Source: Ceratobasidium sp. AG-K
Taxonomy: Eukaryota > Basidiomycota > Agaricomycetes > Cantharellales > Ceratobasidiaceae
Assembly (NCBI GenBank): GCA_037039685.1
Contig: JAWNGF010000007.1
Span: 806,001-870,000, forward strand
DNA: 64,000 nucleotides
Reading direction: 5' to 3'
The translations under genes were made by a program, and so were the position numbers. This document shows positions 17,438 through 38,666 of the stretch, piece by piece. Within the stretch, counting starts at the first letter, position 1; every line of letters starts with the position of its first letter. The notes under the pieces were generated by a model. The model had not been told where the DNA came from. It made no database searches and worked only from the letters and a program-made list of their open reading frames with translations.

Positions 17438-18222
17438 CTTGCTGAAACCTATTCAATCGAGATTTTCTGCTCCCACCAAGAGAGATCGGGTTGAGGCTGT
17501 AAGGCAATCTCAACTTTCAGTCTGAAAGTATCTAACGAGGAACAAAACACACTCAGGTGGCATGTGGATAGAATTTTTAGCCCCATCGACATTACAGACG
17601 ATTCGTGATGGATATTAGTAATATTGTGGTTGGGATACGCATGCATACGTGTACAGCGTATTCGCTTGATTGAACAGAGAAGCCTGTGCCCCCCGCCACC
17701 TCGCTAACGCAAGCCTACTTGCACACGCAAAGTTCTATGCCGCCCGAGCTGGTGGATTGCCGCTGCAAATCCATATTACCAAGTATTCTGCTGTTCCCTA
17801 TCACATTCCACTTGAGGAGCAATACCTCTTGGAGTTCCTGGGCTTGGTTTCACCTCGAATAGGCACACTGGAGCTATCAGCGCCCTGGAGGAACTCGAAG
17901 TACTATACTGAGTACCTCCGAAGCTGTCTTGCTGGGGCAGTTTTAGGCACACTGACACGACTTGAAATCGATAACAAGGGCGACTCCTGGTCTAGAACTT
18001 GCCCTCGAATTGCATCCGCACATGCTTCTCCCCAGTGGCATGACATACCACTAGATATTCCCACTCAAATTCTTGAGAATCTTCTACTCTCCGTTACCAC
18101 GCTCTCACTCGGGGATACCTACATTGGATGGACTAGTCGAGCCTATCACGGGCTTGTCGAGCTACGGCTTTGCTGCCCCGTCACAAAGAAATTGTCGATA
18201 CCCGAGTCTGACCTGTATGGTA

Positions 18223-18435
18223 CAGTTAGTTACATTACTATATGCAGAAATCACGTGCGACGAGGATTTGGCCTGGATCCAAGTAAATCGACCTACAGAA
18301 AATGTGCGTTAAATACAATAAGATAGAGAAATGTCAGGGCTACATACCGTATAAATTGGCGTGTCTGTAGCACCAAAAATGACTGAGTTGAAAAATTACT
18401 AAATGCGAGGCTGTGTCCATACCGTTTTGTAACAC
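18223..18435 (+). repeat. left terminal inverted repeat of the foldback element
   Basis: Pairs with 19602-19814 in reverse orientation with about a dozen mismatches by eye; weaker pairing continues inward to the middle of the element. Confidence 0.85.
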
Positions 18436-19601
18436 ACGGTTGTGCTTGAACACTCCCTGTTGGCACTTGTCAACCAGAGGGTTATGGTACCTGCTATTAA
18501 ACGATTATGACACATTTGGGCTACTATCATTGTAGGACGACTTTATTCACTGGTGAGAGAACTAGAATTGCTAAAGATCCACAAAAAAAAGCGCTGAGCA
18601 AGGGATTTAAGGCTCAATGGGTGTGTTACGTTTTTGAGCAACTCTAAATGCCACCTAAGATGCTATTTGGGTAAAATATTGCTGTAGAGCTACTAGCACA
18701 GGTCTTGGGGGGATTTTACATTTGCTTTCCCATTGAAAACGAGTTTCATATGCGCACACATGAGGCCCACACAGCGATATTACTGCATTTTGGGATGCTT
18801 AATCACCGTCAATTGGCTTGATACTGCCTATACACATGTATAAGTGACAGGAAATTTTGCTGCGCTGAGAATCGCCTTGCTCCAGCACCGTCAATGGGTT
18901 GTTAAGAGGCAAACTTATGGGAGTAAAACAACCCTGTCGCCTTACTCCAGCAAATCTTAGTCACCCCAAGCATTTGAATGGATAATCAAAAAACAGGGCA
19001 ACAGTAATGAGATAAGATCTATGGCTAATTCCTGAATGAGGGCGTCCTTGTTCTAATGAGCTCGTAGAGAAACAATTTAGGTTTGCCAAGGTAGGGTGCC
19101 AAGGTTATTTTCCCTTTGTAAATTTGCCTCTTCATGGCCCATCAACGGCTTTGGAGCGACGCAATTCTCAGTCCTACGGCAACTCTTGTTATTTATACAT
19201 GTCTATAGTTATTATTGAGCAAGAAAACAACGTTTAAGTGCCCCAAAATGCAATAATACTGCTGCCTGGGCCGCATGTATGCACAAACAAAATGTGTTTC
19301 CAATGGGAAAACAAATGTAAAGTACACAAAAAACCCCTTCTGATCGATTTAATGAACTATTCTACCCAATGAAAACGCCGATTCACGTCCGAGGCCTCTC
19401 AAAAATGTATGGCACCCATTGAGCCTTGAGCCCCCTGCTCTGCGCCTTGTTTCACATCTATTTAGCAACCTGGGATCTCTTATCATCTGAGAAAGCTACC
19501 CTGAGATAGTGATACACCAGTTGTAGTATAATACTCTTACCACGGGTAGTATACTGCCTGAGTTGATGAGCACCAACGGGGGGGTGCTTAAGCTCAAGTG
19601 T

Positions 19602-19814
19602 GTGTTACAAAACAGTATGGGCACAGCCTCGCGATTAGTAATTTTTCAACTCAGTCATTTTAGGTACTACAGACACGCCAGTTTATACGGTATGTAGCCC
19701 TGACATTGCTCTATCTTATTGTATTTAACGCACATTTTCTGTAGGTCAATTTACTTGGATCCAAGCCAAATCCTCGTTGCACGTGATTTCTGTATATAGT
19801 AATGTAACTAACTG
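19602..19814 (-). repeat. right terminal inverted repeat of the foldback element
   Basis: Reverse complement of the left end at 18223-18435; the outermost 21 bases are identical. Confidence 0.85.
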
Positions 19815-19976
19815 TATCCTCTCTGCCAGTCCTGGGCTACATGTTATTGTCTTTGAACTGTTGATTGCGGATCCATATCAAGAAAGCTCCCTGATTGCTT
19901 GAGCATTAAAACACGCTTGATATTGGGAGACTGGAATACAGATGCCTTGGAGCTATGCTACGACTATAAGTAAATA

Positions 19977-21935: not shown

Positions 21936-23226
21936 GGGAGGTAGTCGGATGGGTCGAAGATGAAAGCAAACCAGCTAGCGGTTGGTGCGTGGAATGCTAG
22001 ACGACTGGATATATGTTGTGGATGAAACTGTGGGGAAGCTCAGCTATGGGTCACACTCTAGCTTGCAACCATACCTAATCCTCGTGGTTGGCCGCGTACA
22101 CAGCACTGGCGCCATGTACTATATACAGTGACTGTGCCCGTGCGAGCACAAAAACCAATCCGTGAGCTGAAATGGCGGCATTGCTGAAGAGAGTCGGGCA
22201 GGGGGCAGCAAGCTCGCAGGGGAAAGGTGTGTGCTCGGGACTGTCACCCTGGGCAGCCAGGGAATTCGGAAATTACCGCCTTATTTGTGAGTAGCCTCTG
22301 AGCTGGTTATGCATTCCGAACACCGGATACACGGTACTGTCGGTCGATGGCGACCCGAAAGGCCAGATATGCGGAGGTGCTACCAGAGGCCAACAAAGTT
22401 ATCACTGTGCGAATCCAACCCGTGACCTCTTGTATTTGCTTCCGACGGGACAAGCGTGCTCTTGTCAACCACAATCACAATGGACTGGTTTCCAGAAGCT
22501 TCACTAGCATATCATGTATACTACTTCTCAACCAAAAGTGAGAATCTCGGTTGGCTCTTGAGGTCTCGTGAAGCCCGGGACTATCTCGGCGGTCTCTAGA
22601 GCGCTCGGGATTGCTCATAAGCGCTCAGGAGACAAACGATGTGGAACAACCATACGGCCCCAAAATGGGCCCTACAGCCAGCTACAAGGCACCGAGACGA
22701 GCCGATAATTGAGCTGATACGTCGAGAATACTAGCTATCTACATGAAATGTTAACCTACTATTTTGTGATATGCGCAGTGCCGAGCTGGATATCAATGTA
22801 ACTCAGCTCGTGCTACTTGAGAGTAGAGAACTTCGCATATATATACCTGGATATCAATGTAACTACAGGTAATATAAGCAAATGAATATAAAAGATAAAA
22901 TCTAAACTATACCTCAGCTCGTGCTACTTGAGAGTAGAGAACTGAGGACAAAATTTTACCGAAGCGCGTGTCCATGTGGAACACAATCACGTGATACGCA
23001 TATATACACGTATAAGACTGAATATTCAACATACTATACGTGTCATAACTCAATCGCATTGCAAGGCCGAGCGACACCTTGCTGTTGGGGCTTTGAGAGC
23101 AATCCTGTTTAGCGCAAGTAGGTGATTTTACCCAGAACCTGATTCTTCCATTCGCACACATTTACAAGAACTTCAGCAGACGTGCAGAACTTTGGCCACC
23201 TTCGTGTCTTATTTTCCATACCGCGT
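21936..23226. other. intergenic, contains short direct repeats
   Basis: Lies between the 5' end of the family 1 gene and the 3' end of the kinase gene, both on minus. No supported gene. AT-rich from 22740 to 23040; see the direct repeats at 22787-22943. Confidence 0.5.
22787..22943. repeat. two nested pairs of short direct repeats
   Basis: A 17-bp string starting TGGATATCAATG is present at 22787-22803 and 22848-22864. A 31-bp string starting CTCAGCTCGTGC is present at 22802-22832 and 22913-22943. The spacing suggests replication slippage or the footprint of a small insertion. Confidence 0.7.
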
Positions 23227-25249
23227 TTAGTTCTCCTTCTCCCCTCCAGAAACCGTATGCTTCTCCCTCTCAGAGATAACCTCCTTCATCTGCACAAGCA
23301 TCGTTTAGATGTCGAACTGGCTATGACTTGATTTACTGACCTTGTCTCGCGCCTCGGCGGAGGTTGGGCGATCCTTGGGACTAAATGCCCAGCAGCTTTT
23401 GAGCAGCGACCACAACAGATTGGCATAGATTATCCCCGTGGGTATATGCTCCTCAGGTCGGGTAGGATGCACACCACCCAAAATTTTCCTCATGATGAGG
23501 GACTCGCGCAGACCAGTGTATGGGGGCGAGCCAGTGATAATTTCCTATCGGAGTCGTAAGATATCCTGTTCAATCTCGACGATTATTTGACGTCACATAC
23601 AAATATGGTCTAGGGTGTGACTTTAGCTAGTAGAGCTTTGGCAAGGCAACACACTTGAAACGTACCATTCCAAGCGAATACACATCTGCTTCTGCGGTCA
23701 GGCCGGTTTCTTCGTCGAGTAACTCAGGAGCCTAGTCTTTGTCATAATATCACCACTTAAAATTCAAGGGTTGAGATACGCACCACCCAGTTGAGTGAGA
23801 TGCCGGCCCTACCAGTGGTCTTCGAAAACAGTAGAGTATACTCTCGCAGCGCGGCATTCCCGAAATCGGTCACCTTGGGGACGATGTCGCCTGAAACCAG
23901 AACGTTGTCCTAGGAAACATAAAGTGAGTATCGGCATGCATGAATTCAAGGATAGCACTCGGGCCATACCCCTTTGAGGTCTCCGTGTATCTGTGAGCGG
24001 CGATGGCTTAAGCAGCAACTTTACACATTATTCATCAAATAATGTCACTCACGACATCCACGTCGTGCAAATAAGCAATACCGTTGGCGACTTGGAGGCA
24101 CTGGGAAATGAACTTAGACATAGTTATGGTGAATTATCGTGATGACCATACCAGGGCGAATCGATCGACTTGGGGCTTCAGGGAGAGCAAACGCCGGACG
24201 TTACCATACTCCATCCACGGCGATACCATTGCAACCTGGTTCCGATATTGGCCCACCCCTATCAGCGCCAGCACGTTTGGGTGATCACATTTCGACCACA
24301 CGTAGAGCTCTCGGGCTGCACGCTGAGCGTCAGGTTAGAGGTGTATGTTCTCGGCCCATGCATTACGATAACACACCTTGAGTTGCTTCTCTGCGATCTC
24401 GTTCGAGTCCATATGCAATCGGAGACACTTGACTGCGACCAATTGTCCGTTGTGGAAAGCACCGCGATACACGTCCCCATAGCCACCAGATGAAATGGGA
24501 TACTCACTGAACTTCGACAGGTCAAGCTCCTGCGTGACGTCCTTACACCCGTGGCGGCTGAGGCGCTCAAGTACTTCAGCGATAGACTGGCGCGAAGGAA
24601 ATGACCGTAAGTGATGAGTAACAGCAGAGATATTCGGGAGTTAGGTTACCATTTCACGAGTGATCGTGTCCTGTCTGATATCATTTGGTTCATTCTCAAC
24701 AACGTTTAAATCAACCCGTGGGGAGCCCGCGGGCACATTCTCAGGCTAGTGGTTTAGCGCATACAACAGGGGGGTTACTCATGAGTATGTAGGCTTGATG
24801 CGGGGTGCTTCGGGAAAACACACGCACGGGGTGAATATCCATCAGTGCAGCACTTGTGCCACTAGGACCACCCCTACTGTGAGCATTCGCAAGTGAAAGC
24901 TCTGTGACCGATGTGTGTACCGGGTTGTTAGGTTTGACGTTAGGTTGAATAGTGGTAGTCCTCAGACCTAAGCTCGTCTTCTCCTGCGATTGGGGTCCTG
25001 CAGGTGAGATGGGTTCGGGCTTGGTGGGCAGCTTGGGGTTTGTTCGGGTGATAATTTTGGACTGGTCCTGAGGAATCCAGAAAGCAGGGAAAACAATAAG
25101 GGCCGCAGTACAGTCAGTAAGCGTAAGCATCAGCATAGGGGTGGCGACAAGTTCGATCAGTCAAAAATGTCTTTGAAGATGTACCAGGTTGAACAGCGGG
25201 AGCTTGTACGAACCTCGCTTAGTATTGTGTTCGGATGGTTCCTCAGAAA
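23227..25249 (-). CDS. TKL-type protein kinase, catalytic core and linker (all introns phase 0)
   Basis: Ser/Thr-type kinase. Exons on minus: 25249-25214, 25067-24828, 24745-24650, 24586-24377, 24322-24152, 24100-24053, 23990-23970, 23909-23784, 23731-23666, 23544-23341, 23289-23227. Kinase motifs in order: SSGGYGDVYRG (glycine loop), VAVKCLRL (lysine), ELYVWSKCDHPN, IHGDLKGDNVLVS (catalytic loop), VTDFGNAAL (DFG), NWVAPELL (APE), ADVYSLGM, and CWAFSPKDRPTS. It ends in EKHTVSGGEKEN. The 240-nt exon before the domain is a Pro/Ser/Thr-rich linker starting DQSKIITRTNPK. Every exon is a multiple of three and every intron is phase 0, with no frameshift. Upstream the reading frame continues into the array of single-codon exons described separately. 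HGDLKGDN in place of HRDLKxxN is common in fungal TKL-like kinases. Confidence 0.9.
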
Positions 25250-25307
25250 CTGAGATAGTAGGATCAGAGTAACATTAGTGCATATGAACACGGGGTGGTC
25301 GACCTAC

Positions 25308-26189
25308 GTGCTAAAAAGTTGTAAGAAACTGGTATTTCACAGGAACAGCGGATGATGGTACGAACTTGCTATCCGTGAGAATTCAAGTCCATTCAGTCGG
25401 TAAAGGAATGAGTAGAGGCTGCACAACATACCACCTGGCAGTGAGGACGCACATCCCAGGTTAAAATACCTCCACCTGTGATGAAGAAGCAAAGCTTACG
25501 GCCTGTTAGCGCGTAAGAGAGATTATGCGAGTTAGACGTAGAGGCGTGCGCGTGAAGAGAGCACGTACATCCTGGAATTACGTAGGTGAATGGAGGTACA
25601 AAGTAAATGACAAATGGAAAAGGCGAGCATACATTCTATGACGAGGCAGTTTAGCGATAAAGCAGCTGGTCTGGTTGACCGCAGGAGCAGATGAAAGAAC
25701 GAACCTTCTATAGGGAATTTTGCAAACCGCAGTGAGAAGACGAGCGTGAACTGGAGAGAAGATGACACACAGCCTGAAAATTATGTGAGAGTTGGCTTGG
25801 GGAGCGGGGTATGATGAACTTACTCTCTGCGATAACAGTCGGGCGGATCTCAGCATGTACAAGGTCGTACGAAGGGGGCTTGGAGTAGGCTTACGTCCTG
25901 TGGACGAGTTGAGTTAAACATGCGAGGAAGAGATAAAACCAAGAGAAAATGGTGGAATACTTACAGGCTATGTACAAGTGGATTGTAGCCCAGTCAAAAA
26001 ATGGAAGGACGAAGCAAGGAAGACAACGAACAGTCTATTGCAGAATGAGATAATGGAACTATTAGCGTCGAGGGCAGGAACAAAAAGGGGGGGAGAAAGA
26101 GAACGAACCGGCTAGATGTGAATGCATGCAAGATATGTAGTAGCAATCAGAGAGAGACGGTTCAGAGACAGGACAGAAGAACTGACAAA
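25308..26189 (-). CDS. array of 14 single-codon (3-nt) exons upstream of the kinase, unique-intron part
   Basis: Minus strand. Each site reads YAG-NNN-GT. From 5' to 3' the exons are 26189-26187 ttt, 26111-26109 ccg, 26034-26032 act, 25967-25965 cct, 25897-25895 gac, 25826-25824 aga, 25773-25771 gct, 25707-25705 aag, 25635-25633 aat, 25571-25569 gat, 25502-25500 gcc, 25434-25432 gtg, 25368-25366 caa, 25310-25308 cac. They read F-P-T-P-D-R-A-K-N-D-A-V-Q-H and then join the 36-nt exon FLRNHPNTILSE. Donors are GTAAG, GTATG, GTACG, GTAGG, GTTCGT, GTGTGT or GTCAGT; spacing is 53-78 bp; the introns differ in sequence and carry CTNA-like branch sites. Chance is a poor explanation: about eight of the sites have a YAG-NNN-GTANG form, expected roughly 0.1 times per kb. 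Transcription has not been shown. Confidence 0.72.
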
Positions 26190-26221
26190 CTAGCGGAGAG
26201 TGCAAAGTTTCAGAAGGCACG

Positions 26222-26589
26222 GCGAGTCGCATCAGTCAGCATACTCCTCGCTCGACATACGGCTCATACGCACGCTCTACAGTCGTAAAGCAGCGTCCAG
26301 GAAGAGCGACGACGGCCAGTGAGTGAGATAGCGAGTTGCATCAGTCAGCATACTCCTCGCTCGACATACGGCTCATATGCACCCACTAGAGTCGTACAGC
26401 AGCGTCCAGGAAGAGCGACGACGGCCAGTGAGTGAGATAGCGAGTCGCATCAGTCAGCATACTCCTCGCTCGACATATGGCTCATACGCACGATCTACAG
26501 TCGTAAAGCAGCGTCCAGGAAGAGCGACGACGGCCAGTGAGTGAGATAGCGAGTCGCATCAGTCAGCATACTCCTCGCTCGACATACGG
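26222..26589 (-). repeat. 109-bp tandem repeat, left block: 106-bp intron plus 3-bp hypervariable exon
   Basis: Period is exactly 109 bp (units start at 26222, 26331, 26440, 26549). On minus each unit reads TGTAG or TCTAG, NNN, GTGCGTATGAGCC, a TGCTGACTGATG branch-like region, and TACGACTGTAG. The NNN exons are 26276-26274 agc (S), 26385-26383 tgg (W) and 26494-26492 atc (I). The fourth unit is cut by the retrotransposon. At the left edge the donor half of a unit is joined to a unique acceptor half that ends at the ttt exon, as expected if whole intron-exon units were duplicated in tandem. Confidence 0.88.
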
Positions 26590-26692
26590 TGTAGTAGGGG
26601 TTCGGAGTCAGGGTCCGAGGACCTATATAGCCTGTGTATTGTCCATAGCCAACCAACCTTCCTTCTTCTGCCACGCTTCCTAGGCGTGTCCA
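26590..26692 (+). repeat. 5' LTR, 103 bp
   Basis: Starts TGTAGTAGGGGTTCGG and ends GGCGTGTCCA; identical to 33349-33451. It contains CTATATAG, a possible TATA box. Unusually short for an autonomous Ty3/gypsy element. Confidence 0.93.
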
Positions 26693-26695
26693 CCG

Positions 26696-26711
26696 TGGTG
26701 ACGAGAGTGGG
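26696..26711 (+). other. probable primer-binding site
   Basis: TGGTGACGAGAGTGGG, three bases after the 5' LTR; the TGG start fits the CCA end of a tRNA. Which tRNA is not determined. Confidence 0.55.
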
Positions 26712-26930
26712 TATCCTAGCCCATATTCTGAATCACTCGCTGTCAGCAAACAGCTTTCAGCGTAGTCTCTGGCGCTCCTGCCTTTCGCACAATACTGCCC
26801 AACACGCGGTCTGTTAACTCTACTCGTCCATTAGGACGAGGTCGCTCGGACACCATCTGTCCCGAGCCACTTTACCCTACACCTTCTCCTGACCCCGAGT
26901 CACCAGCTCACTATTCTGCTCGACGACGCA

Positions 26931-28598
26931 TTGTTCGAGTCCGAGGACAGCGGCACCTCTAGCCCAGGCCTTCTTATCATCCCACGCTCAAGCAGCACCG
27001 TTCCGTTCTTTGGACCCACCACTCCCACACGCGTCGAGCCTCTTGTTCCCTTTCCACACGGCCCAGGCCACGCGAACTCCTCTTTCCGGTTTGTGCAGCA
27101 TTCGCCCACGCGGCCAGCCGTGTCACCTAGATCCCGTGTCAACTCAAACGCCAGCCTACCATCCCCAACCATCCGTACTGTCTCAATCAGTCAAAGCGCC
27201 GCCGCACTGCCAAACCCTAGCACGCCACCGCCTATCGGACCAGTCACACAGCCAAACCCTGTTGCACCCGCACCTACACCTGCACCTGCGCCTGCACCCG
27301 CACCTGTACAATTGCCAGCGCCACCAACTATGGGCACGAACAAGGATCTCCGCAACGCACGTCGCATGCTTGCTGACCTCCCAAACTTTGACGACAACGG
27401 AATTCCCATGAAGGAGTCACAGTGGAGGCACACCTTTAACATTGCTACACGTGATGTCACCAACATGCAGAAAGCTCAGCTCTGGGCAGACAAACTCATC
27501 TACGAGGGGGTGGCATATGAATGGCTTGAAACATACAAAGCCAAAGGGCAGGCCAAGACAGCTGAAACCTTGGACTGGGCCACGCTTGGACTGCTTATTG
27601 AGACTCGATGGGCAACACCAAGAAGGGACCTGGCAGCAATGGCAGCACGTCGCCGAGAGCAGTGGCGTGACAGCCGTTTCAATATCAAGCCAATGCTTCC
27701 CCAGCTTCAAGACAACTGTGCAACCCGGCCTCACGAAACCTGGGCGCGGCGCCATCACTCGTACGGCAAAGCGACTGGCCTCCCGGAAGACAAGCTTCTG
27801 TTTCAGTCTCTCGAAGGATCGGTCCTCCCAAAATGGTTGCTCAGCATAGTCTCAAACTACCGCATGTTCACTACACTCGAGGAATTGTGCGATGCCATCG
27901 CCAAGATCCCATCCAACCAGCTGCTGGACACGTACCAACAGCATAAGGAGATGGCCGAACTCACTGCTACTGTCAGGGCTCTCTCGTTATCAGTTACCCC
28001 GCGCTCAGCCCTCCGTAACACTGTGTCTCCAACATTGCCTGCCCAGCTAGCTGCTTCCCCATGTATCCCGCCACTTACAGCCCAACGCACCGCTGGACCC
28101 GCCCAAGTCACATTTGCAGCGCCCACTGCCTCGACCCGGGAGCCTCGATCCCGTCAAATGCCACCGCACATGGCTCAAGGTCAGAGTACCATCCCACGGC
28201 CAACAGGCCAGCGTGACCCCACACCAAGCTTGGTGGCCGAGGACACAGTGGAGGAACAAGCACGCTACCAAGCGAGCGTCAAGGCCTGGAAGGATGCACA
28301 TGGCGAGTTCTCCAAGCCAACCAAGGACCTGCCCCCGTTCCCACTTTCCCCAGGCACGCTGCACCAGACCCGTGACGTTTGTATCAACTGCGCCCGAGAC
28401 CTCCACCCGCTGATGGCATGCCGATCGGAGATCCAGGTCCCCCAACAGGAACGGACAGCCCGTGGGTTGTTACTCAGTGCATTGAGGGAAGCTCGACGCC
28501 GTGATCGTGGTGGGACAGGGAATGCAGACTTGCACTCAGTTCAGCAGCTCGAGTACCAGTCGGACGCTCACAACGACAGCTCGGACTCGGAAAACTAG
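26931..28598 (+). CDS. gag: Gag polyprotein of the Ty3/gypsy element
   Basis: Structural protein of the retrotransposon particle. The frame is open from at least 26931, but no ATG is near its start; the first in-frame ATG is at 27330 (MGTNKDLRNARRM), which gives about 422 residues. The upstream part is rich in Pro, Ala and Ser with an AP repeat. The capsid-like region contains WRHTFNIATRDV, KAQLWADKLIYEG, WATLGLLIETRW and ARRHHSYGKATGLPEDKLLF. It has a C-terminal cysteine pair (CINCARDLHPLMACR) but no standard CCHC knuckle. The frame ends in TAG at 28596-28598 and overlaps the pol frame. Confidence 0.85.
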   Translation: MFESEDSGTSSPGLLIIPRSSSTVPFFGPTTPTRVEPLVPFPHGPGHANSSFRFVQHSPTRPAVSPRSRVNSNASLPSPTIRTVSISQSAAALPNPSTPPPIGPVTQPNPVAPAPTPAPAPAPAPVQLPAPPTMGTNKDLRNARRMLADLPNFDDNGIPMKESQWRHTFNIATRDVTNMQKAQLWADKLIYEGVAYEWLETYKAKGQAKTAETLDWATLGLLIETRWATPRRDLAAMAARRREQWRDSRFNIKPMLPQLQDNCATRPHETWARRHHSYGKATGLPEDKLLFQSLEGSVLPKWLLSIVSNYRMFTTLEELCDAIAKIPSNQLLDTYQQHKEMAELTATVRALSLSVTPRSALRNTVSPTLPAQLAASPCIPPLTAQRTAGPAQVTFAAPTASTREPRSRQMPPHMAQGQSTIPRPTGQRDPTPSLVAEDTVEEQARYQASVKAWKDAHGEFSKPTKDLPPFPLSPGTLHQTRDVCINCARDLHPLMACRSEIQVPQQERTARGLLLSALREARRRDRGGTGNADLHSVQQLEYQSDAHNDSSDSEN

Positions 28599-31500
28599 TG
28601 GGGTTGGTAAGCAGTAATGCCTCACTTGCCAACCCTGTGTGTTTCGAGGCCCCACGGGTAGATGACGATACGCTGAGGCTGGATTCTTGGAATATGCTCA
28701 CGGACAGGACAGTCTCTTTTTCTTCTAATGTACCTAATCCTGCCATCTCTAAAATACTATCTTTTCCCCAGTATCCAGCGCCTACACTAGTAGACCTTTA
28801 TAATATCGACGATGAAAACCAGCGAGATAAACCCTTTCAAGCTTGGGCACACCTCAAGAACCCCACAAACCCCCGTTATGAAATCAATGCACGCACTACA
28901 ATCGACGGTGGAGCAATGCTGTGTGTGATGGACCGCACTTTCTGGGCATCAATGGAGGGAGCATTAGGACCTTTAGCTAAGTCCAGAATTCTCTGTCGGA
29001 TGGCCGATGGGAGCCTCACCAACTCGGTAGGACACGGAGAAGTGCTCCTCGGTTTGGCTGGCCAATGGCGGAAGATCAAATTTGAGGTCTTAGATGCACA
29101 AGGGAACTATGACATACTCCTCGGAAAGCCATGGCTACGACTAGCTGGAGCAGCTCAAGTGTTCAAAGGCGATACCCTTATTCTATCAACGCCAAAGGGT
29201 CCACTCGAGCTCCACAATGACTACCCGCTACCAGCCAAGCCACCAACCCAGCCCGAGGGACTGATTGAACCTGGAGACGAAGTGCACAAGCCCAACAGCG
29301 AGGAACATAAATCTGTGCCCGGCACAGCGACCAAGCCCGAGACAACAGTGCCAGCAGGGACTGTGCCCGGTGAGCCCATTCCCATACCCGCACCAGCCCC
29401 AGCACCCGTTCCTGTTACAGTGCCCACACGTCGGAGCCGGCGGCTTCGGAAATTGATGCCCGAGCAGGAAGACAACCCTTTCTGGGTCGATTCGGCATCC
29501 CTGGAGTGCCTCGAATGCTGGACCGGAATGTCAACAAAGCAAGAAGAGCCAAGCCACGCAGTCTCTGGCCGGCTGGAACCACGAAGCGTAACAAACCCAG
29601 TGCAAGGAGCGAGAGATGAGTCGGGAGACGAGATGCTGGACCGGCTTTGGCGCTCAGCACAGATCAGAGTGGAAGAGAAAACCCAGCGGGATATGTTGCT
29701 GACCGAGGCTGTTGATAGGAACACTCGTGTGCAGCACCTCAAGACGATTGTAGACCGAGCACAGCGAAGGATCAAGCGGGCAAAAGGACCAGCAGACATC
29801 ATGGTACTCAATACAAGTGAAGACCGACAATCTCGGCACCCATCAGCCCAACGCCGTGTTGAAGTGCCACCAACAGCTCCATCCCTCCGGAAAACCAAGC
29901 CATTCGAACCATTACGAGTCCAGGAGATATTGCGAAGAGTTCGTGTGGGACCAGACCTCACAGAGCAACAGAAACAGACGGTTCAAAACCTTGTGAGTGA
30001 GTACGCTGATATCTTTGCTCTCTCTCTCTCCGAGGTACTGCCAATCGATTTTGCAGAAATCAAGCTCGACATACCAGAAAACGCAAGCTTTCCTAAGCGT
30101 GCAGGGCAGAAGAGGCTCACGGAACCGCAGCGACAATGGCTCTACCGTACACTCGACGACATGGAGGAAGCTCGAATCATTGCTAAGGTTACCCAGGATC
30201 AAGTCGCCGCAGTCTCCCCTACAAACATCGTCCCAAAGCCTGGAGGTGCTGAGCTACCCAGCATTGCAGCACTCCGAAAAATGGCCAACGATCAGTGCCT
30301 CAAATATGGGCTGCCAATTATGTGGCCGGAAGCGGAGACCGAGGACCCAGTGGAGAATACATCAGCGCCCGAAGCTAAGTTCCGATTAGTTCACAATTTT
30401 GCATCGGTAAATCGTGTGACACAGCTCCGCCCGTTCCCGATGGGAGACCTTGCAGCAATGCAACGTAAAATCGCTGGACACCGATGGGTTTCAGTCATGG
30501 ACTTCATGGCGGGGTTCAATGCAATACCAGTCGCCCCGGAGAGCGTCCCGTATACTGGGTTCCATGTGGATGGCAGGGGCTACTACGTATACCTCAGAAT
30601 GCCATTCGGACTTACTGGTGCGCCCACCACTTTCTGTGAGACACTGGCGGCTGCCTTCCACGATCTAATAGGAAAGGACCTCGAAGTCTGGATGGATGAT
30701 GTGGCATCGGCCTGTGATGAATTCGAAGACGGGATGCTGAAGCTCAAGGCAATATTCGCTAAGTGCCGTTCACACGGGCTCTCGCTGGCTCCAGCTAAAA
30801 CCGTTCTTTTCATGTCTGAAGCCAAGTTTGCTGGTGCACGATGCTCCGCGGAAGGGATACGACCAGATCTGTCAAAAGTCAAAGCCATCCTTGACTGGCC
30901 GGAACCGAGAACGGCACTGGAAATAATGAGCTTTCTAGGGTGTGTGGGCTCGTATCGTACCAAGATATTCGACTTTGCCAGGATCGCACAGCCACTCACA
31001 GACCTTACGCGCGATATCCGTTCACCGCAAGTTAAAACACCCGCAAGCAACCAGGAGTACAAGAGAGCACTCAAGGAGACCCGGATCGTACTCGACAACA
31101 CAGCTCGACATGCATTTGCCAAACTCAAGACCATTCTGACAGCTGACAATCTCACTCGGGCGCCGGTGTATGACGGGCGACCATTCATCGTCACAACAGA
31201 TGGCTCGAAATATGGCTTCGGAGCCGTCCTCTCACAGGAATGGGAAGTCCAGGACGAGAAAGGGCTAACGCACAAGGTGATGTACCCAGTGGCCTTCGCA
31301 TCCAAACGAACCTCACGCACGGAGGAACGATACATCCCGTTCCTCCTCGAGTTCGCAGCCCTAAAGTACAGCCTTGACGAGTTCGACAGCATCATATACG
31401 GCCAACCAATTGAGATAGAAACAGACTGCAAAGCACTCGCCGACCTCCTCGGGAACAACAAGCTCAATTCGACCCACGAACGCTGGCGCGAGTCCATTGT

Positions 31501-33193
31501 TGCGCGGGACATTCGAGCGGTGAGGCACAAACCGGGAGCAGAAAACCGAGTGGGTGATGCGCTCTCAAGGATCTACGAGTCTAGGCCAGATGACAACACC
31601 CCGGCGGGACAGGACTCCACGGTGGACCCCGGTTGGGAGTCAGCAAAAGGCCTTCTGAACGATGTGTACCTCCTCGTCGACGACGAGTCTTCGCGTGCCC
31701 TCCTTACTCGGTTCATAGACGACCCGTACTTCTCTTCGGTCCTTAACCACCTGCTCTTCGACACAGGCGAACCTGAAGACGAGTCAGCCGAGGAGCGACG
31801 AATGCGAAAGCGGCAAGCACACCGGGCAGAGGGATTCTTGGTCGAAGGCGGGAAACTCTGGCTGGTCGGCGGGAAAAGGACAAAGCATTCTGGCAAAGTT
31901 GAGTGTATTCCACGTAACGAAGCAAAAGAGATGGCACTGGCTGTACACTCAGCAGGAGGACACTTCGGCCGCGACATGACGATCCTCGCCTTGCAACAGC
32001 GGTTCTTCTGGCCGGACCTACGGAAGGACACGATCGAAGCAATCACATCGTGCCCCAGGTGCAAGAACTTTGGCCCACGACTCCTGTCCGCTCAAATGCA
32101 ACCAATCACAAGGTCTCGCCCATTCGACCTCCTAGTCGGAGACTATTTGTCGCTGCCCGTCGGACACGGAGGATTCAAGAACGTCCTAGTGGTAGTCGAT
32201 GCATACAGCAGATTCGCATTTGCGTTCCCACTCAGAGGCCCTGGCACTGGAAAAACAACGGTGGACCTGCTCTCACGAGTTGCGGACATGATCCTCACTC
32301 CGCGAACGTTCATGGCGGACGGAGGTTCGCATTTCGACTGCGAAGAAGTCAGAACCTGGGCCAAGGATCGGGGGGTATCCATTATCAAGACACCCGCATA
32401 TGCTCCCTGGACGAACGGCCTCGTGGAAGGTTACAACAAGCTTCTCATTGGCCGGTTGAAACGCCTGTGCACACCAACGGTTGGAGAATCACCCGAGGAG
32501 GATGCCGATCCAGCAACGACACCGGGAGCGTGGCCCAAGCACCTAGCCACCGCCGTCGCGCAACTCAACGATCGAACGCTCCCCTCTCTATCGTACACTC
32601 CACGTGAACTCTTGACGGGCCAAATCAGCGCTGAAAGGCGGGCAGAGCTAAGTGCTACCATTCGAGAACCCTCGTTGCTCGAGGTGGAGGTCAATATGGC
32701 ACTCACGTACTCGCTCCGTCAGGATGCCTATGCTTTAGCACTCGAGCACGCAGAGCGCAGAAGAAAGTCCTTCGACAAGCACGCGCGAATCGCCAACTTC
32801 AAGCCCGGGGACCTAGTCCAGCGGTACGACGCGAGATGGGATGAGACGCACGCAGCCGCTCGAAAGTTGGTACCTCGCTGGTCCGGCCCACTCCGGGTCG
32901 TCTCGAAAGCACTCAATTCCTACACGCTTGAAGACCTCCACGGGAAGAAGTTTTCCGAAGCCACCCACACCCGCCTCCTCCGCCCTTTCGTCCCACGACC
33001 CGGAACCCCGCTTGCAGAATACGCAGAAGCCTTAGCCCAAGCACGTAGAGCCAATCCCACTGCTTCCAAGCCCGCGATCGAGACTCCGATCGAGCTGCTC
33101 CCCCCCACGCCGCGTCCCGAGATCCGTCTTCCGCTCCTACGCGAGGACGCTACTCAATCTCCAAATAATTACCAAACAGATCTATCCAGTTGA
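28598..33193 (+). CDS. pol: Pol polyprotein of the Ty3/gypsy element (PR-RT-RH-IN), intact
   Basis: About 1530 residues in the -1 frame relative to gag; the frame is open from 28505. Domains in order: aspartic protease (TTIDGGAMLC, then ILLGKPWL), where D-G-G replaces the usual D-S/T-G; reverse transcriptase (RLVHNFASVNRVTQ, RMPFGLTGAPTTF, and VWMDDVASA, with W-M-D-D in place of Y-x-D-D); RNase H (VTTDGSKYGFGAVL, ETDCKALADLLG, GDALSR); and integrase with its zinc finger (HSAGGHFGRD, CPRC) and catalytic D, D, E (LLVGDYLSLP, FMADGGSHFD, WTNGLVEGYNK). The C-terminus has the usual small domain (RWSGPLRVVSKALNSYTLED, HTRLLRPF) and no obvious chromodomain. The first in-frame ATG is at 28694. No stop or frameshift. 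Confidence 0.95.
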   Translation: MGLVSSNASLANPVCFEAPRVDDDTLRLDSWNMLTDRTVSFSSNVPNPAISKILSFPQYPAPTLVDLYNIDDENQRDKPFQAWAHLKNPTNPRYEINARTTIDGGAMLCVMDRTFWASMEGALGPLAKSRILCRMADGSLTNSVGHGEVLLGLAGQWRKIKFEVLDAQGNYDILLGKPWLRLAGAAQVFKGDTLILSTPKGPLELHNDYPLPAKPPTQPEGLIEPGDEVHKPNSEEHKSVPGTATKPETTVPAGTVPGEPIPIPAPAPAPVPVTVPTRRSRRLRKLMPEQEDNPFWVDSASLECLECWTGMSTKQEEPSHAVSGRLEPRSVTNPVQGARDESGDEMLDRLWRSAQIRVEEKTQRDMLLTEAVDRNTRVQHLKTIVDRAQRRIKRAKGPADIMVLNTSEDRQSRHPSAQRRVEVPPTAPSLRKTKPFEPLRVQEILRRVRVGPDLTEQQKQTVQNLVSEYADIFALSLSEVLPIDFAEIKLDIPENASFPKRAGQKRLTEPQRQWLYRTLDDMEEARIIAKVTQDQVAAVSPTNIVPKPGGAELPSIAALRKMANDQCLKYGLPIMWPEAETEDPVENTSAPEAKFRLVHNFASVNRVTQLRPFPMGDLAAMQRKIAGHRWVSVMDFMAGFNAIPVAPESVPYTGFHVDGRGYYVYLRMPFGLTGAPTTFCETLAAAFHDLIGKDLEVWMDDVASACDEFEDGMLKLKAIFAKCRSHGLSLAPAKTVLFMSEAKFAGARCSAEGIRPDLSKVKAILDWPEPRTALEIMSFLGCVGSYRTKIFDFARIAQPLTDLTRDIRSPQVKTPASNQEYKRALKETRIVLDNTARHAFAKLKTILTADNLTRAPVYDGRPFIVTTDGSKYGFGAVLSQEWEVQDEKGLTHKVMYPVAFASKRTSRTEERYIPFLLEFAALKYSLDEFDSIIYGQPIEIETDCKALADLLGNNKLNSTHERWRESIVARDIRAVRHKPGAENRVGDALSRIYESRPDDNTPAGQDSTVDPGWESAKGLLNDVYLLVDDESSRALLTRFIDDPYFSSVLNHLLFDTGEPEDESAEERRMRKRQAHRAEGFLVEGGKLWLVGGKRTKHSGKVECIPRNEAKEMALAVHSAGGHFGRDMTILALQQRFFWPDLRKDTIEAITSCPRCKNFGPRLLSAQMQPITRSRPFDLLVGDYLSLPVGHGGFKNVLVVVDAYSRFAFAFPLRGPGTGKTTVDLLSRVADMILTPRTFMADGGSHFDCEEVRTWAKDRGVSIIKTPAYAPWTNGLVEGYNKLLIGRLKRLCTPTVGESPEEDADPATTPGAWPKHLATAVAQLNDRTLPSLSYTPRELLTGQISAERRAELSATIREPSLLEVEVNMALTYSLRQDAYALALEHAERRRKSFDKHARIANFKPGDLVQRYDARWDETHAAARKLVPRWSGPLRVVSKALNSYTLEDLHGKKFSEATHTRLLRPFVPRPGTPLAEYAEALAQARRANPTASKPAIETPIELLPPTPRPEIRLPLLREDATQSPNNYQTDLSS

Positions 33194-33336
33194 GTACACA
33201 CTCCTTTCTCTTAAATATTTCCTTGGTCCCACTTTCCCTCACTTTGACCCTCGCCCGGCTCGTTTGCACCTATATATATATTTGCCGAATGATGACATTA
33301 TTTCTCTTACAGCTATGATAAAAAAATTTGAAATAT

Positions 33337-33348
33337 GGGGGGGGGACC
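33337..33348 (+). other. polypurine tract
   Basis: A run of nine G followed by ACC directly before the 3' LTR, in the place where plus-strand priming is expected. Confidence 0.7.
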
Positions 33349-33451
33349 TGTAGTAGGGGTTCGGAGTCAGGGTCCGAGGACCTATATAGCCTGTGTATTG
33401 TCCATAGCCAACCAACCTTCCTTCTTCTGCCACGCTTCCTAGGCGTGTCCA
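33349..33451 (+). repeat. 3' LTR, 103 bp
   Basis: Identical by eye to the 5' LTR over its whole length; followed directly by the ACGG target duplicate. Confidence 0.93.
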
Positions 33452-34300
33452 ACGGCTCATACGCACGCCCTACAGTCGTGAAGCAGCGTCCAGGAAGAGG
33501 GACGACGGCCAGTGAGTGAGATAGCGAGTTGCATCAGTCAGCATACTCCTCGCTTGACATATGGCTCATACGCACCTCCTAGAGTCGTGAAGCAGCGTCC
33601 AGGAAGAGCGACGACGGCCAGTGAGTGAGATAGCGAGTCGCATCAGTCAGCATACTCCTCGCTCGACATACGGCTCATACGCACCCACTAGAGTCGTAAA
33701 GCAGCGTCCAGGAAGAGCGACGACGGCCAGTGAGTGAGATAGCGAGTCGCATCAGTCAGCATACTCCTCGCTCGACATACGGCTCATACGCACCCACTAG
33801 AGTCGTGAAGCAGCGTCCAGGAAGAGCGACGACGGCCAGTGAGTGAGATAGCGAGTCGCATCAGTCAGCATACTCCTCGCTCGACATATGGCTCATACGC
33901 ACGTGCTACAGTCGTAAAGCAGCGTCCAGGAAGAGCGACGACGGCCAGTGAGTGAGATAGCGAGTCGCATCAGTCAGCATACTCCTCGCTCGACATACGG
34001 CTCATACGCACGCCCTACAGTCGTGAAGCATCGTCCAGGAAGAGGGACGACGGCCAGTGAGTGAGATAGCGAGTCGCATCAGTCAGCATACTCCTCGCTC
34101 GACATACGGCTCATACGCACCCACTAGAGTCGTGAAGCAGCGTCCAGGAAGAGCGACGACGGCCAGTGAGTGAGATAGCGAGTCGCATCAGTCAGCATAC
34201 TCCTCGCTCGACATACGGCTCATACGCACGATCTACAGTCGTGAAGCAGCGTTCAGGAAGAGCGACGACGGCCAGTGAGTGAGATAGCGAGTCGCATCAG
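33452..34300 (-). repeat. 109-bp tandem repeat, right block: 106-bp intron plus 3-bp hypervariable exon
   Basis: Continuation of the same array after the retrotransposon, opening with the 4-bp target duplicate ACGG. The NNN exons on minus, 3' to 5', are 33469-33467 ggc (G), 33578-33576 gag (E), 33687-33685 tgg (W), 33796-33794 tgg (W), 33905-33903 cac (H), 34014-34012 ggc (G), 34123-34121 tgg (W), 34232-34230 atc (I), each exactly 109 bp from the next. Flanking sequence is almost identical in all units. The base before the acceptor AG pair varies with the codon: CTGTAG before atc, ggc, cac and agc, CTCTAG before tgg and gag. The array ends at about 34300 in mid-intron. Confidence 0.88.
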
Positions 34301-34339
34301 TTGGCGGCTGTTTCATTCTCTATCCCATCTCTTACACAC

Positions 34340-35785
34340 CTTCTGCACTTGTAACGTTATTGTCAACCGGGTACCGCGGTTAATAAGTCATTGTATCACA
34401 AGTCAATCTACTGCTTTCTGGTTTCTAGAACAACTGACCCTCTATTTCAATCCCCACGGCGTAAATGACAGCTATCCCCTTTCAGCTCGGCAAACCAGTG
34501 CAAGTCACTCACAACCTAGCGTTGCACACATTGACCTCGTTCTCAGCTTCACTTCGTCCCGACCTCTGCGTACTCACCGTCTACATTTTCTCATCGTGAC
34601 AGTTTAGCGGTTCCACATAACTTCAGTCGTCAATAGCTCATCCTAACTCACATACTGTTGTCGCATGGTGCAACAGCAAGACAGGACCCATAATCCACCT
34701 CAGTAATGTTCACAACCAGCAGTAACGTCCCACACTTACATCCTATATTTTCCGAGGGTGCATTCTTCTGGTCAGGCTCACGTAACCTCAAACAAGAATA
34801 TCAACCTACGTTCTGACCATTCATCCCGATTCGAGTAAACGCAATCACCAGTCATTCAGGAGCCACCCCTCATATCACATATGGACGTACCCACTAGCGT
34901 TTTTCAAGCCTCTTGACATTAGCGCCACCTGACATCAAAGTATCAGAGCGACGTACGGTCTACACGCACGGCAACGCATGATCGTGAGGCTCAACACGGT
35001 TAGGATAATAGACGCATTGGGTACCCACCCACTTCCTCGCGGACAGTGAAGGCAAATCCAGCATAAAATATATCCGCAATAACACACACCCGCGATGGAA
35101 TAATCGAATCTCCAGTTAGACACGCCGACGCGCTCACGGCCACTGTCACTCACTTCCTAATGTTCCATTACACCCGGAAACGGTAAAACAACCAGCCGAT
35201 ACGCAAAACAAATTCATCCATCAGTCGGTACCATTCTCCGGGATAAATTCTTTAGTACTTACTGGCTGATAGTCGGCACGATAATGTTAGACGATCAGAT
35301 TTTCGTCCAACCGCAGGTCCCTCGGTCAGATATTGTACTCACATCCTGGGTTGCCCAAGCCGGTTTAACCTTCAGTATGATCCTAACATCAATGCATAGA
35401 TGATGCGCACCCCCTGTGATTGCCCCACCGTTCCGTCCAGTTATCGAATTGCCGTTGAGCCACACAATCGGGGTTCCTCAGCAGTACGCCCGACCAGAAT
35501 GTACAGTAACCCACCTTGTATTGTATTCACGATCAAATGCGGCAGTCAGCGGGCCAGTCGCCAAGACATTGGGTCATGATTCAAACGGTCAGTGCCACCG
35601 AGTGATCATGATTGGGTAGTAAACACACACCCTCTAAGGCCGCATCGTCGCGTTGCACAGTATTTGTGAGCTGAGAAGAGCTATAGCACTTCAGCTGTTC
35701 ACTCACGATATCCTTTCCCTCGACCTGAGCGAACATGGATAAGTGAGATCTGTGCTCGTCGCAATTGCAACTGTGGGCCCACCCA
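34340..35785 (-). CDS. array of about 16 single-codon exons, distal part
   Basis: Same YAG-NNN-GT form on minus. From 5' to 3': 35785-35783 tgg, 35633-35631 agg, 35413-35411 ggg, 35345-35343 gat, 35265-35263 cca, 35156-35154 gaa, 35035-35033 gaa (weak GAG acceptor), 34959-34957 acc, 34893-34891 tgg, 34812-34810 aac, 34742-34740 gat, 34654-34652 tat, 34580-34578 acg, 34515-34513 gtt, 34441-34439 agg, 34342-34340 aag. Most donors are GTGAGT, GTAAGT, GTACGT or GTAGGT. Spacing is 65-121 bp up to 35413 and wider beyond, so some exons may be missed or the array thins out. The intron after aag starts with unique sequence and ends in satellite sequence, tying this part to the tandem repeat. The true 5' end of the gene was not found. 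Confidence 0.62.
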
Positions 35786-38666
35786 CTAAAACGGCATATA
35801 TCAGCATGGGGAAATGACCGATTAGACGTGCACCTACAATTATTTCGATTTCCATGCTGAGCAGTCTCTAGAGTCTGTCAACCCTCGCTCGGTGGTCGTT
35901 GTTACAGGGGACCGTATGGCCACATTTGTATGTGCATCATTACTGGGCGCTTATCGCGTGATCTGTACCAAATGCGGAACTTGAATTTGACCAAGACAGT
36001 ATTCGGCGAGCTTGAGCATTACAATATCTCGCTTGGGGTTTCGCCACTCGTATATGAGGAAGATTGAGCTCGCTGCTAGCCAAGTCTAGTATCTCGCCGA
36101 CGGAATCCAGATACATAACACGCAAATCACCGAATTGCTTCCATAGCCTTTAGTTTCCTGTCCCCGTTCACGTCTTTTCCGAGTTGGTTACCAACTAAAA
36201 ATCGCTGAATCATATATCTTCCTACTCGCTACAGTTCTTAGTTGTTCTATATGCATATGGTCATGGCCACAGCCGCGATGTGACCTGGTCTCCCTCGGCC
36301 AGAGTAGGTCGATACTGCTTAGACCTCCCGTGAAATTCGCTATTCCAAGTATTGCATGATCGATTATTTATCTATCTACTTGCATAGCAGGCTAAAAATT
36401 GGTTCTCGCTCCATTAAACTACATACTCCTTGCTGTGACCTAGGGTACCTTTAGCCACCATGAGTACGCTTAGCGGTAAACACTCGCAGTTATGCCTTCC
36501 CAACGTTGGCCAACCAAAGACTGCTGGCTTGGAACACTCAGAAATCAAGCCGTTGGGCATGGGCATGGCCGTGAGCTCACGCATGACGCAGGAAGTCTGG
36601 GCTTTGAGCTGACCCGCGGATGGATTGCCGAGGAGGTGGTCTCATCGACAAATTTCTGGTTTCTATGAGTATCCATGGCGAGTTAGCGATATTCAATTGG
36701 TTTGGCGGTATTCAAAAACTCCAGCACATGGTTGAAGTTATCATAGCCATACTTCGACCACGGCTCGAGGCGGGGCAATAACGAGATTCCATCGTGTCAG
36801 GTCGAGTTGTGCCGAGCTACATAGGTAGAGCGTTCCAGGGCGTGGCTGATCGATTCGCGAGCTTTGCACTTTGATTTGGGCTGGTTTGCAGGAAGAAGGT
36901 GATTGTAAACAGGCCGCCAGTGAGTCTCGAGGGGTTGTTTGTTCGGGCAAGTTAGCTTTCAGCTGGACAGGATCTCCATAGTGTTACATGTCCTTGTACG
37001 GCAATCAACCTTGCACTAATAGAGTAAAGCTATTTATGGAACGAGGATGGTGAGGTCCTGGAGTAGTGGTTGATGAGCACAATTTTGGCGTTGAAGCGTA
37101 GGCGACCAGCGGCTATCACGCTGTCATCGGGGTCCACTGTCCAGAGCCTTGGACTTGCACTCGACCATCATTGGAGATTATAAATAAACAACAGCACCGA
37201 CGGGCAGAACTCTGTATAAACCCTCATCGTCACTCCTGGATCTGGGCTGAACATTGTTATATCCCGTTTGGCAAGTTTCCGTGTCCACCAAAAAGGACGA
37301 GGGCGTAAGAGTTGTCACAGCAGTGTGGAACACTGGGTATATCAACTGTGAGACCGCCATCACAACGCCGCCTCTCTCGGCTATGCTCTCTAAATTTAAC
37401 TTGTTACCATTATCCGTAGACCAGACCCACCTTTGATTTTCCCGCCTAGCCAGTCCTCCCTCATCTAGCCTTGAGTCCGCAAGGTCTCCGAGCGGGACCA
37501 ACAGGCACGTGAGGCACCACACTCCACCTTGTGGGAGTTCGGCCAAGGTAGTTGCCCCAGTTGGATATGCCTTAACAGGCTTGCATCACAGCTGATATCC
37601 TAGTTGCTGATAACAGGCCCGTATCCTGTTGGCAAAAGCGGATGTCGCGTAATGTTCGAGCAATCTCCTATCTCAAATACTGACTTGCCAGAGGTGTGAA
37701 GGTACGTCTAGCTTGTCTTGCGAGACTCGGGTCGGACCGTTGGCTCAGATATCCATGCCTCCAGTTGTAAATAGTCATAGAAATCAACGTTTGGTTGTGC
37801 CTGAGCGTACCTGGGCGTATTTCTGGCACTGTCGACCTGTTAGTTGCGCTTAAGAACGATGCAGAATAAGTTACGATTGCGTATCTGTGCACTCTCCTGA
37901 CGCATAGGGAGTAATAATAATGAAAGAGTGTTGGGTTCTGACGGCGCTCCACGAGTCGAGCGGGGTAAGTAATCGAAACCGCTAGAGCGAAATGAATTTG
38001 ATATGCGTGATTTAGACTTTGTTGTCGATAAGCGGAGCCCAGGTCGAAATGAATACCTGTTTGAGGTCCGTTCGATGCTTCCATACAGGAATCGTGCAGA
38101 ATGGAAACTCTCGTGAATCGGGCGGAACGCACGCTGAAGTCGCACCGATGTGGGCAACCAACCACGGCGTAATCAGTAATTGCGATGCCTGCAGGTCAGG
38201 CAAATCGCGAAGCAGAAACCGATGCATATTTTACGTGACGTTTCAGCTTGTTTGCAGAGACTGGGTCAAGACAAGTCCAGTTGTTTGTGAATTGGGGATG
38301 CATGACTAGGACCATTCTCCGGGACTCGTTCGCGTATCACTATAAACTCGCAATGGGAAAACCTCAGCATGGTAACTCCGAGGGGTCGTGAGTAGAACTC
38401 TGCCAAAAAGACGGTATTCTAGGGATTCAGAGGTGACTCATATTATCATATTACGAGGCAAATGAATGTACGCGAACCGATACGTCACTTCTGGATAGCA
38501 TAGCCGGGTCACTATTTTCATGGAAAGGTCGCTGGGGTTCCCTGCATAGCATTTGGAGCTACATAGGAAGTGTTCCGGGATCTCGACGCAACTAATTACA
38601 TTATTTCTATTGGCTCGCGCTCGAGCACAGCCCGCCCTGGACTCTGACACGTCGAGTCGACGTCCA
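35786..38666. other. unresolved region upstream of the microexon array
   Basis: About 2.9 kb. The minus frame 36125-35940 encodes a natural-looking piece (QFGDLRVMYLDSVGEILDLA), and minus frames 37546-37178 and 38227-38012 are open but unrecognised. Any of these could be ordinary 5' exons of the kinase gene. Two more splice-like microexons may lie at 36192-36194 and 36226-36228, but they are too close together to both be used. No repeats or RNA genes seen. Confidence 0.4.

Follow-up and report, generated by a model that had tools for sequence, protein, structure and literature searches.

Can the N-terminal part of a fungal kinase be put together from exons of a single codon each? The question is raised by a gene on the minus strand of a 64,000-nucleotide stretch of the Ceratobasidium sp. 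AG-K genome (53.6 Mb, 17 contigs), hereafter called the window, which corresponds to positions 806001-870000 of contig C7. A preliminary description of this DNA had claimed 41 YAG-NNN-GT sites upstream of the kinase core, spaced at 53-121 bp and running in frame into a 36-nt exon and then the kinase. From comparison with related genes of the same genome, we consider it probable that these kinase genes carry a chain of one-codon exons (41 in the window), which would be spliced one after another into an N-terminal module whose ends are conserved and whose middle is hypervariable.

One-codon sites upstream of the kinase

A strict site was defined as YAG-N3-GTNNGY on the minus strand (for the later site lists, score cut-offs of our own choice were used). 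Upstream of the kinase, 39 strict sites were counted (14 at 25250-26222, 10 in a tandem repeat, and 15 at 34302-35850), and all of the 41 claimed sites were recovered with two weaker ones, namely TGG at 26388 (donor GTGCAT) and TGG at 35029-35031 (AAG acceptor, present also in the duplicate copy of the gene described below). Elsewhere in the window, 13 strict sites were found on the remaining minus strand and 6 on the entire plus strand; on both strands, every 1-kb segment outside the array held two sites or fewer. When the exon length was set to any value of 0-30 nt other than 3, the two non-repeat regions gave 0-2 sites each and the tandem repeat gave 0 sites, except for length 16 (7 sites). 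In 2000 dinucleotide shuffles, the first region had 0.16 sites on average (maximum 3) and the third had 0.43 (maximum 4), the observed numbers being 14 and 15. Only 0-2 sites per strand were seen at the genome's eight strongest kinase matches, taken together with 1.5-kb flanks, and length-3 sites numbered 0-2 in the 21 control tracks (both strands of L001-L008 and L038, one strand of L044-L046). Thus the site density, for which the preliminary description had proposed shuffled or unrelated DNA as the comparison, was absent from the shuffles and from the control loci.

The codons follow one another at 53-125 bp, with three longer steps of 152 bp (an 18-nt exon lies between), 220 bp (a zero-nt site) and 6975 bp (a retrotransposon); the lower end of the claimed spacing therefore stands, and the upper end does not. 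The branch-like motif CTNAY lies upstream of 71 of the 127 non-repeat sites in four loci, in agreement with the claim that CTNA-like sequences precede the acceptors; it was found at 45 of 201 other YAGs of the same stretches and in 6 of the window gene's 11 kinase introns. The absence of stop codons, which for the window had been given a chance of 0.14 and was weak alone, now extends to all 290 strict sites in seven loci including the window (49 distinct codons; the count omits the 11 sites of a second locus on contig C5, C5:2.12M). If only the non-repeat sites are taken (127 in four diverged lineages), the chance of a stop-free set is about 0.002 by our own arithmetic, at 3 stops per 64 codons. 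As a separate observation, no Cys codon occurs among the same 290 sites, and the commonest residues are Tyr, Asp, Gly and Trp.

Conserved ends and hypervariable repeats in related genes

Besides the window, 11 loci around related kinase exons were examined out of 172 matches, and an array, whole or partial, lies upstream of the kinase in 7 of them. The numbers of strict sites were 52 (the duplicate copy), 60 (C7:1.07M), 41 (C6:0.29M), 49 (C7:2.38M) and 35 (C12:0.66M); C5:2.27M (14) and C5:2.12M have the 3' block with few repeat units. The exon order 18-3-18-3-0-3 is common to the window gene, the duplicate and C7:1.07M, and the C6 gene agrees up to the 0. At the 5' ends, which were aligned by eye, the window, C7:1.07M and C6 genes all have MEIE(I/L)IW, a six-residue exon and then W-T-W, and the C12 gene differs more.

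The residues of the 3' block were compared in register (the C12 gene was omitted, and GC-donor and AAG-acceptor codons were counted). The last 12 one-codon exons of six loci read TPDRAKNDAVQH (window), TPDEAKNDAVQD, TLDEAKNNAVKD, TLDEAKDAAMRD, TLDEAKNAAVQD and DLDQAKDRAVKH. The window matches C7:1.07M at 7 of 12 positions, which none of 20000 shuffles reached, and C6 at 6 of 12 (17 of 20000 shuffles). All 15 pairs of the six loci showed 5-10 matches, reached by 0-110 of 20000 shuffles (110 for the worst pair, the duplicate versus C6), and synonymous changes are present in 12 of the 15 pairs. When the window, C7:1.07M and C6 genes were compared intron by intron (global alignment, 7 per pair), introns from corresponding positions had an identity of 0.58-0.59, no higher than that of mismatched ones. 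Residues that stayed in register while the introns diverged to background are, in our reading, a sign of translation. In the C12 gene, the 3' end reads TLDE-A-K-S-A-A-V-E-H if two weaker-acceptor sites at the spots predicted by the spacing are counted (the two further Ala exons of this gene were read by eye). Overall, the conserved 3' end finishes in a sequence resembling TLDEAKN.AVQH, and the 5' end of the window gene begins MEIEIIW and continues with a WTW..Y motif.

Between these ends lie tandem repeats with a unit of 109 bp in the window and the duplicate and of 112 bp in three other genes. The codon is the hypervariable part of the otherwise near-identical repeats, and this feature, which the preliminary description did not mention, is the strongest one. 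In the arrays of 11, 20 and 4 units, the three codon columns hold ranks 1-3 of about 110 in variability, and in the largest array (37 units) ranks 1, 2 and 6, with the mean diversity of the intron columns being 0.03-0.14. The ratio of codon to intron pairwise differences was 10.8 (11 units), 4.5 (20 units) and 12.4 (37 units). Note that the ranks and ratios omit the C7:2.38M gene, 21 units of which (sharing one strict motif) entered the comparison of units with identical flanks. In that comparison, four units of the duplicate that are identical across 95 flanking bases carry TGG, AGC, GCC and GAT, and nine units of the C7:2.38M gene with 109 flanking bases in common carry CGA or CTT. The unit numbers differ between copies (11, 20, 37 and 4), which supports the earlier proposal that single residues can be gained or lost. 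A genome search with the 109-bp unit gave 19 matches, all in two C7 loci (the search skips very common words).

Three side observations concern these arrays. About 1.9 kb into L042 of the C7:2.38M locus (L049+L042, C7:2375500-2384499), there is a repeat unit without the acceptor G and the codon, by which two introns would fuse and one residue would be lost with the frame kept. The Glu codon GAG of the 3' block has an apparent GC donor (GAG|GCTCGT) in C5:2.27M, C7:1.07M and C7:2.38M. A longer exon between Y and I, considered in two paralogs, was dropped since it contains a stop in one copy.

Predicted gene structure, a spliced relative and the surroundings

The predicted model of the window copy has 55 exons (41 of one codon) and 54 introns, all GT-AG, and gives 482 residues. 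Every exon is in phase 0 and an ATG start exon was found, so the claimed in-frame run into the 36-nt exon and the kinase holds for the whole model. Retention of any one of the 54 introns would bring in a stop or shift the frame. The short exons other than those of 3 nt are of 9, 18, 18, 21 and 36 nt. The introns of the array are 50-122 nt long, apart from one of 217 nt with the zero-nt site and one of 6972 nt with the transposon. The duplicate has MEIKIV as its start exon, both the gene starting at C7:1068036 and that starting at C7:2377710 have MEIEII, and the C6 gene has MEIELI; the start exon of the C12 gene, read by eye, is 12 nt long. In four genes, exactly one AG|GTNNGY lies at offset 111-116 of the matching intron, and the site is predicted to be a recursive-splicing-type ratchet point (a zero-nt site seen by eye in the C12 gene is not among these four). 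The coordinates are collected in Table 1.

Table 1. Features of the window copy and its predicted exons (positions in the window, forward-strand numbering)
Feature	Position	Strand	Basis or remark
First coding exon, ATG GAA ATC GAA ATA ATT (MEIEII), donor GTAGGT	35838..35855	-	Comparison with duplicate and paralogs
One-codon exon TGG (W), first of 41	35783..35785	-	TGG follows the start exon in five other genes with start found
18-nt exon VEGKDI	35707..35724	-	VEKTDY, VEGRDS, AEKETD and IEKQDN in four relatives (by eye)
Conserved 5' block, 15 one-codon exons R G D P E W T W N D Y T V R K	34340..35633	-	Site scan
Predicted zero-nt exon, acceptor ...ACAAG abutting donor GTGGGT	35514..35515	-	Offset 116 of 217-nt intron
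109-bp tandem repeat, 8 units, codons I W G H W W E G	33452..34301	-	Repeat and site scan
Long terminal repeat (LTR) retrotransposon within repeat intron	26590..33454	-	106-bp direct end repeats
109-bp tandem repeat, remainder, 3 codons I W S	26222..26589	-	Repeat and site scan
Conserved 3' block, 14 one-codon exons F P T P D R A K N D A V Q H	25308..26189	-	Site scan
36-nt exon FLRNHPNTILSE	25214..25249	-	36 nt in five relatives too (by eye)
Linker and protein kinase domain	23227..25067	-	11 further exons, including the 21-nt and 9-nt ones

The kinase-part exons (23227-25249) are separated by phase-0 introns of 51-146 nt throughout, and the stop codon lies at 23227-23229. The kinase domain matches PK_Tyr_Ser-Thr (6e-42), and the kinase, which we take to be tyrosine-kinase-like, is closest to proteins of Rhizoctonia solani and Ceratobasidium sp., which make up most of the named matches among the 120 listed (a few had no name). 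Profile searches of the kinase part and the spliced N-terminus found no WD40, NACHT or HET domain; a sub-threshold match of the spliced N-terminus to MBOAT_2 (E 0.017) was taken as chance.

A spliced relative was found in the protein P0009 (421 residues, from a 1707-bp contig with the source code lgn, which we presume to denote a read assembly). It is 56% identical and intron-free along the kinase exons, including the 9-nt exon, and its start reads MNH|FLDGHPEVTLSE, where the genes show V/M-x-H/D as three one-codon exons. With an unspliced intron, CAG, TAG or AAG would stand ahead of the F codon; P0009 has H at this point, and both this H and the M-x-H spacing agree with the one-codon exons of the genes. 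The outcome that the preliminary description named as adverse, a transcript retaining none of the 3-nt segments, is thus not what this relative offers, and P0009 supports three one-codon exons, and three only, in a relative. A second protein search for the N-terminus gave 32 candidates, among which only P0009 itself was recovered.

The retrotransposon in the window copy has end repeats (26590-26695 and 33349-33454) of 106 bp that are 99% identical, by which the element is judged to be young, and is flanked by a 4-bp target duplication, CCGT (by eye); it is absent from the duplicate. The duplicate copy (C7:2295502-2302761, plus strand) is 82-90% identical to the window copy and helped to reveal the start exon; its introns are 90% identical to those of the window, and it is thus less informative for conservation. 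The F-P/L-T block is repeated with its flanks within this copy. The idea that the second copy is an allele was not supported, since the sequences on either side of the window gene (7.9 kb upstream, 7.6 kb downstream) lack a counterpart near that copy. It is therefore called a duplicate, but it may be an allele across a rearrangement. Beside the duplicate, at C7:2292222-2293464, a copy of the kinase 3' end is joined to a stretch matching window positions 38029-37599 (upstream of the gene), a junction that is a sign of local rearrangement.

Two repeated sequences lie further downstream in the window. Directly 3' of the kinase gene, the 75-bp sequence at 22525-22600 has more than 12 genomic copies on many contigs with 90-96% identity. 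The approximately 1.6-kb element at 18221-19816 has internal inverted symmetry (73% opposite-strand self-match), and full or partial copies of it, mostly with 93-97% identity, were found at more than 10 places in the genome.

Alternative explanations, known systems and meaning

Chance or composition, by which splice-like motifs would arise in low-complexity or repeated DNA, is hardly credible and was rejected by the length scan, the shuffles and the control loci: repeats do multiply whatever motif they hold, but there are still 29 strict sites outside them, against shuffle means of 0.16 and 0.43, and the diverged C6 and C12 arrays hold 41 and 35 strict sites. It is very unlikely that the sites form a recursive-splicing ladder without a coding role, in which they would serve as stepping stones for the removal of a long 5' region, with the 3-nt segments skipped or untranslated. 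Ratchet-type sites are known in Drosophila (PMC8605326), and the zero-nt site conserved in four genes fits such a ladder, but it would require neither the exact length of 3, nor the absence of stops, the conserved residues, the in-phase ATG exon or the hypervariability of the codon, and three codons are retained in P0009.

Invasion of an ordinary exon by mobile introner-like copies, inserted at the boundaries of pre-existing codons, would directly explain identical introns beside unrelated codons, and introner-like elements have been described in fungi (PMC4457414). However, the unit numbers differ between copies, the repeated F-P/L-T block of the duplicate looks as if derived from tandem duplication, the 109-bp unit was matched in the two C7 loci only (by a search that skips very common words), and insertion at each codon boundary and nowhere else would be left unexplained; we regard this explanation as unlikely. 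We find it similarly improbable that the genes are decaying, the arrays having been spliced formerly and the kinase being expressed now from a start near the 36-nt exon. The transposon in the repeat of the window copy, the frame of P0009 beginning three residues before the 36-nt exon, the acceptor lost in one C7:2.38M unit, and the two C5 loci without a start exon in the stretch read are all consistent with decay; on the other hand, decay would erase the splice sites, the length of 3 and the stop-free codons, all of which persist across paralogs whose introns are at background.

Several points nevertheless weigh against a spliced and translated chain, the first being that the splicing of the entire array is a prediction from genomic DNA. 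P0009 covers just the last three one-codon exons; when a paralog's spliced N-terminus was used as the query, a protein search gave 13 candidates, none at E<=1, and the spliced N-termini matched no Pfam family at the cut-off. A GTATGT donor-like site lies 13 nt past the predicted donor in most 109-bp units and would give a frame-breaking 16-nt exon (7 strict cases in the 11 units of the window and 15 in the 20 units of the duplicate). Weaker sites were accepted for some exons only after comparison with paralogs. An AAG acceptor is needed for the W of the window, for a single codon in the C6 gene and another in the C12 gene, and for the 36-nt exon in C7:1.07M and the C5 genes; the C12 gene also needs a GAG acceptor, and three genes need the GC donor at the GAG codon. 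No array was found at 4 of the 11 loci (L038, L044, L045 and L046), of which 3.6-5.9 kb upstream was read, and no start exon was found at C5:2.27M and C5:2.12M in the stretch read. In the C7:1.07M gene, 10 units with identical flanks all carry TAT, and the codon was the same in 56 of the 82 pairs without intron differences in this 37-unit array; whole units are therefore also copied. With a 6.9-kb retrotransposon in its repeat, the window copy may not be expressed now, and a function as a recognition module is a proposal.

The micro-exon genes (MEGs) of schistosomes have 10-20 exons, mostly of 15 bp (6-81 or 3-81 bp), with introns of 0.1-5 kb, encode secreted proteins and yield variants through alternative splicing (PMC10526429). 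They resemble the kinase arrays in their many consecutive, very short, mostly frame-preserving exons, which are hard for automatic annotation (PMC10526429), and here too the very short exons come in series with lengths in multiples of 3. The kinase arrays differ in having no 15-bp exon and mostly introns of 50-122 nt, and in their dozens of exons of exactly one codon, many in tandem intron repeats, before a kinase that starts MEIEIIW. The one-nucleotide exons of Fusarium CYP621A and Arabidopsis APC11, which have read support, show that tiny exons are spliced (PMC12940212), and a microexon of Trichoderma Xlr2 provides a fungal example (PMC11121469); these ultra-small exons are conserved and occur once per gene, with neither array nor hypervariability in the accounts given there. 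Drosophila ratchet points have an acceptor abutting a donor and serve the stepwise removal of introns, and Ubx has microexons (PMC8605326); an acceptor directly before a donor is likewise conserved in the matching intron of four of our genes. In contrast, the Drosophila introns are long and the cryptic recursive-splicing exons are absent from mRNA (PMC8605326), whereas the introns here are short and the codons are predicted to be retained.

The Podospora HNWD genes (het-d/e/r) share homogenised tandem repeats of changing number, with a few diversifying codons and intragenic recombination (PMC2873952), and hypervariable codons within homogenised repeats are found here as well. The HNWD unit is, however, a translated WD40 repeat with four selected positions, in proteins with NACHT and HET domains (PMC2873952); in the kinase arrays, all but one codon of the unit is predicted intron. 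Introners and intron gain by tandem duplication multiply near-identical introns (PMC4457414, PMC4974935), but in the kinase arrays a codon belongs to each unit along with the intron, and near-identical introns dispersed in unrelated genes were not seen in the search with the 109-bp unit, which skips very common words. Each of these five systems, as far as the cited texts go, shares one trait with the kinase arrays, and in none of them do runs of dozens of one-codon exons, or repeats coding for only one hypervariable codon, occur. In the genome paper on Rhizoctonia solani AG8, microexons come up a single time, as an aligner setting (PMC4014442). In the open-access literature, to which the search was directed, no description of arrays of single-codon exons was found among the matches listed. 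The claim of a new kind of gene architecture, with dozens of consecutive one-codon exons, thus agrees with the literature searched, and the length-3 preference, the exon order and residue register among paralogs, the ATG exon and P0009 speak for it.

As to the mechanism, the introns would be removed one by one and in sequence, because a 3-nt exon could hardly be held from both sides simultaneously; the conserved zero-nt site and the array introns, which are near the kinase introns in length, are consistent with this. An intron and its codon would form a one-residue cassette, and unequal exchange between near-identical introns would add or remove residues without a frameshift. Gene conversion may keep the introns alike while diversifying selection keeps the codons different (compare the HNWD genes). 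The N-terminal module may serve in recognition, with the kinase reporting that it has bound, as when fungi tell self from non-self or recognise pathogens. A bolder version, which we consider doubtful, is that of a variable region of a receptor kinase made from one-amino-acid cassettes, in which change would be focused on the codon (by codon-targeted mutation or codon-sparing conversion) and codons would possibly be included or skipped at splicing, giving a combinatorial recognition segment between framework ends with a logic like that of complementarity-determining region 3 (CDR3) or Dscam.

If confirmed, the arrays would be a case of extreme exon miniaturisation, in which a protein segment is encoded almost wholly by one-codon exons, and gene predictors would miss such N-termini. 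They would bear on how the spliceosome handles tiny exons and would offer a natural test system for sequential splicing. They would also mean that a protein can be varied residue by residue with its frame safe, the introns acting as the handle for recombination, and with a hypervariable codon set in near-identical introns, the old question of how diversification is focused on chosen residues in a eukaryote would become directly testable.

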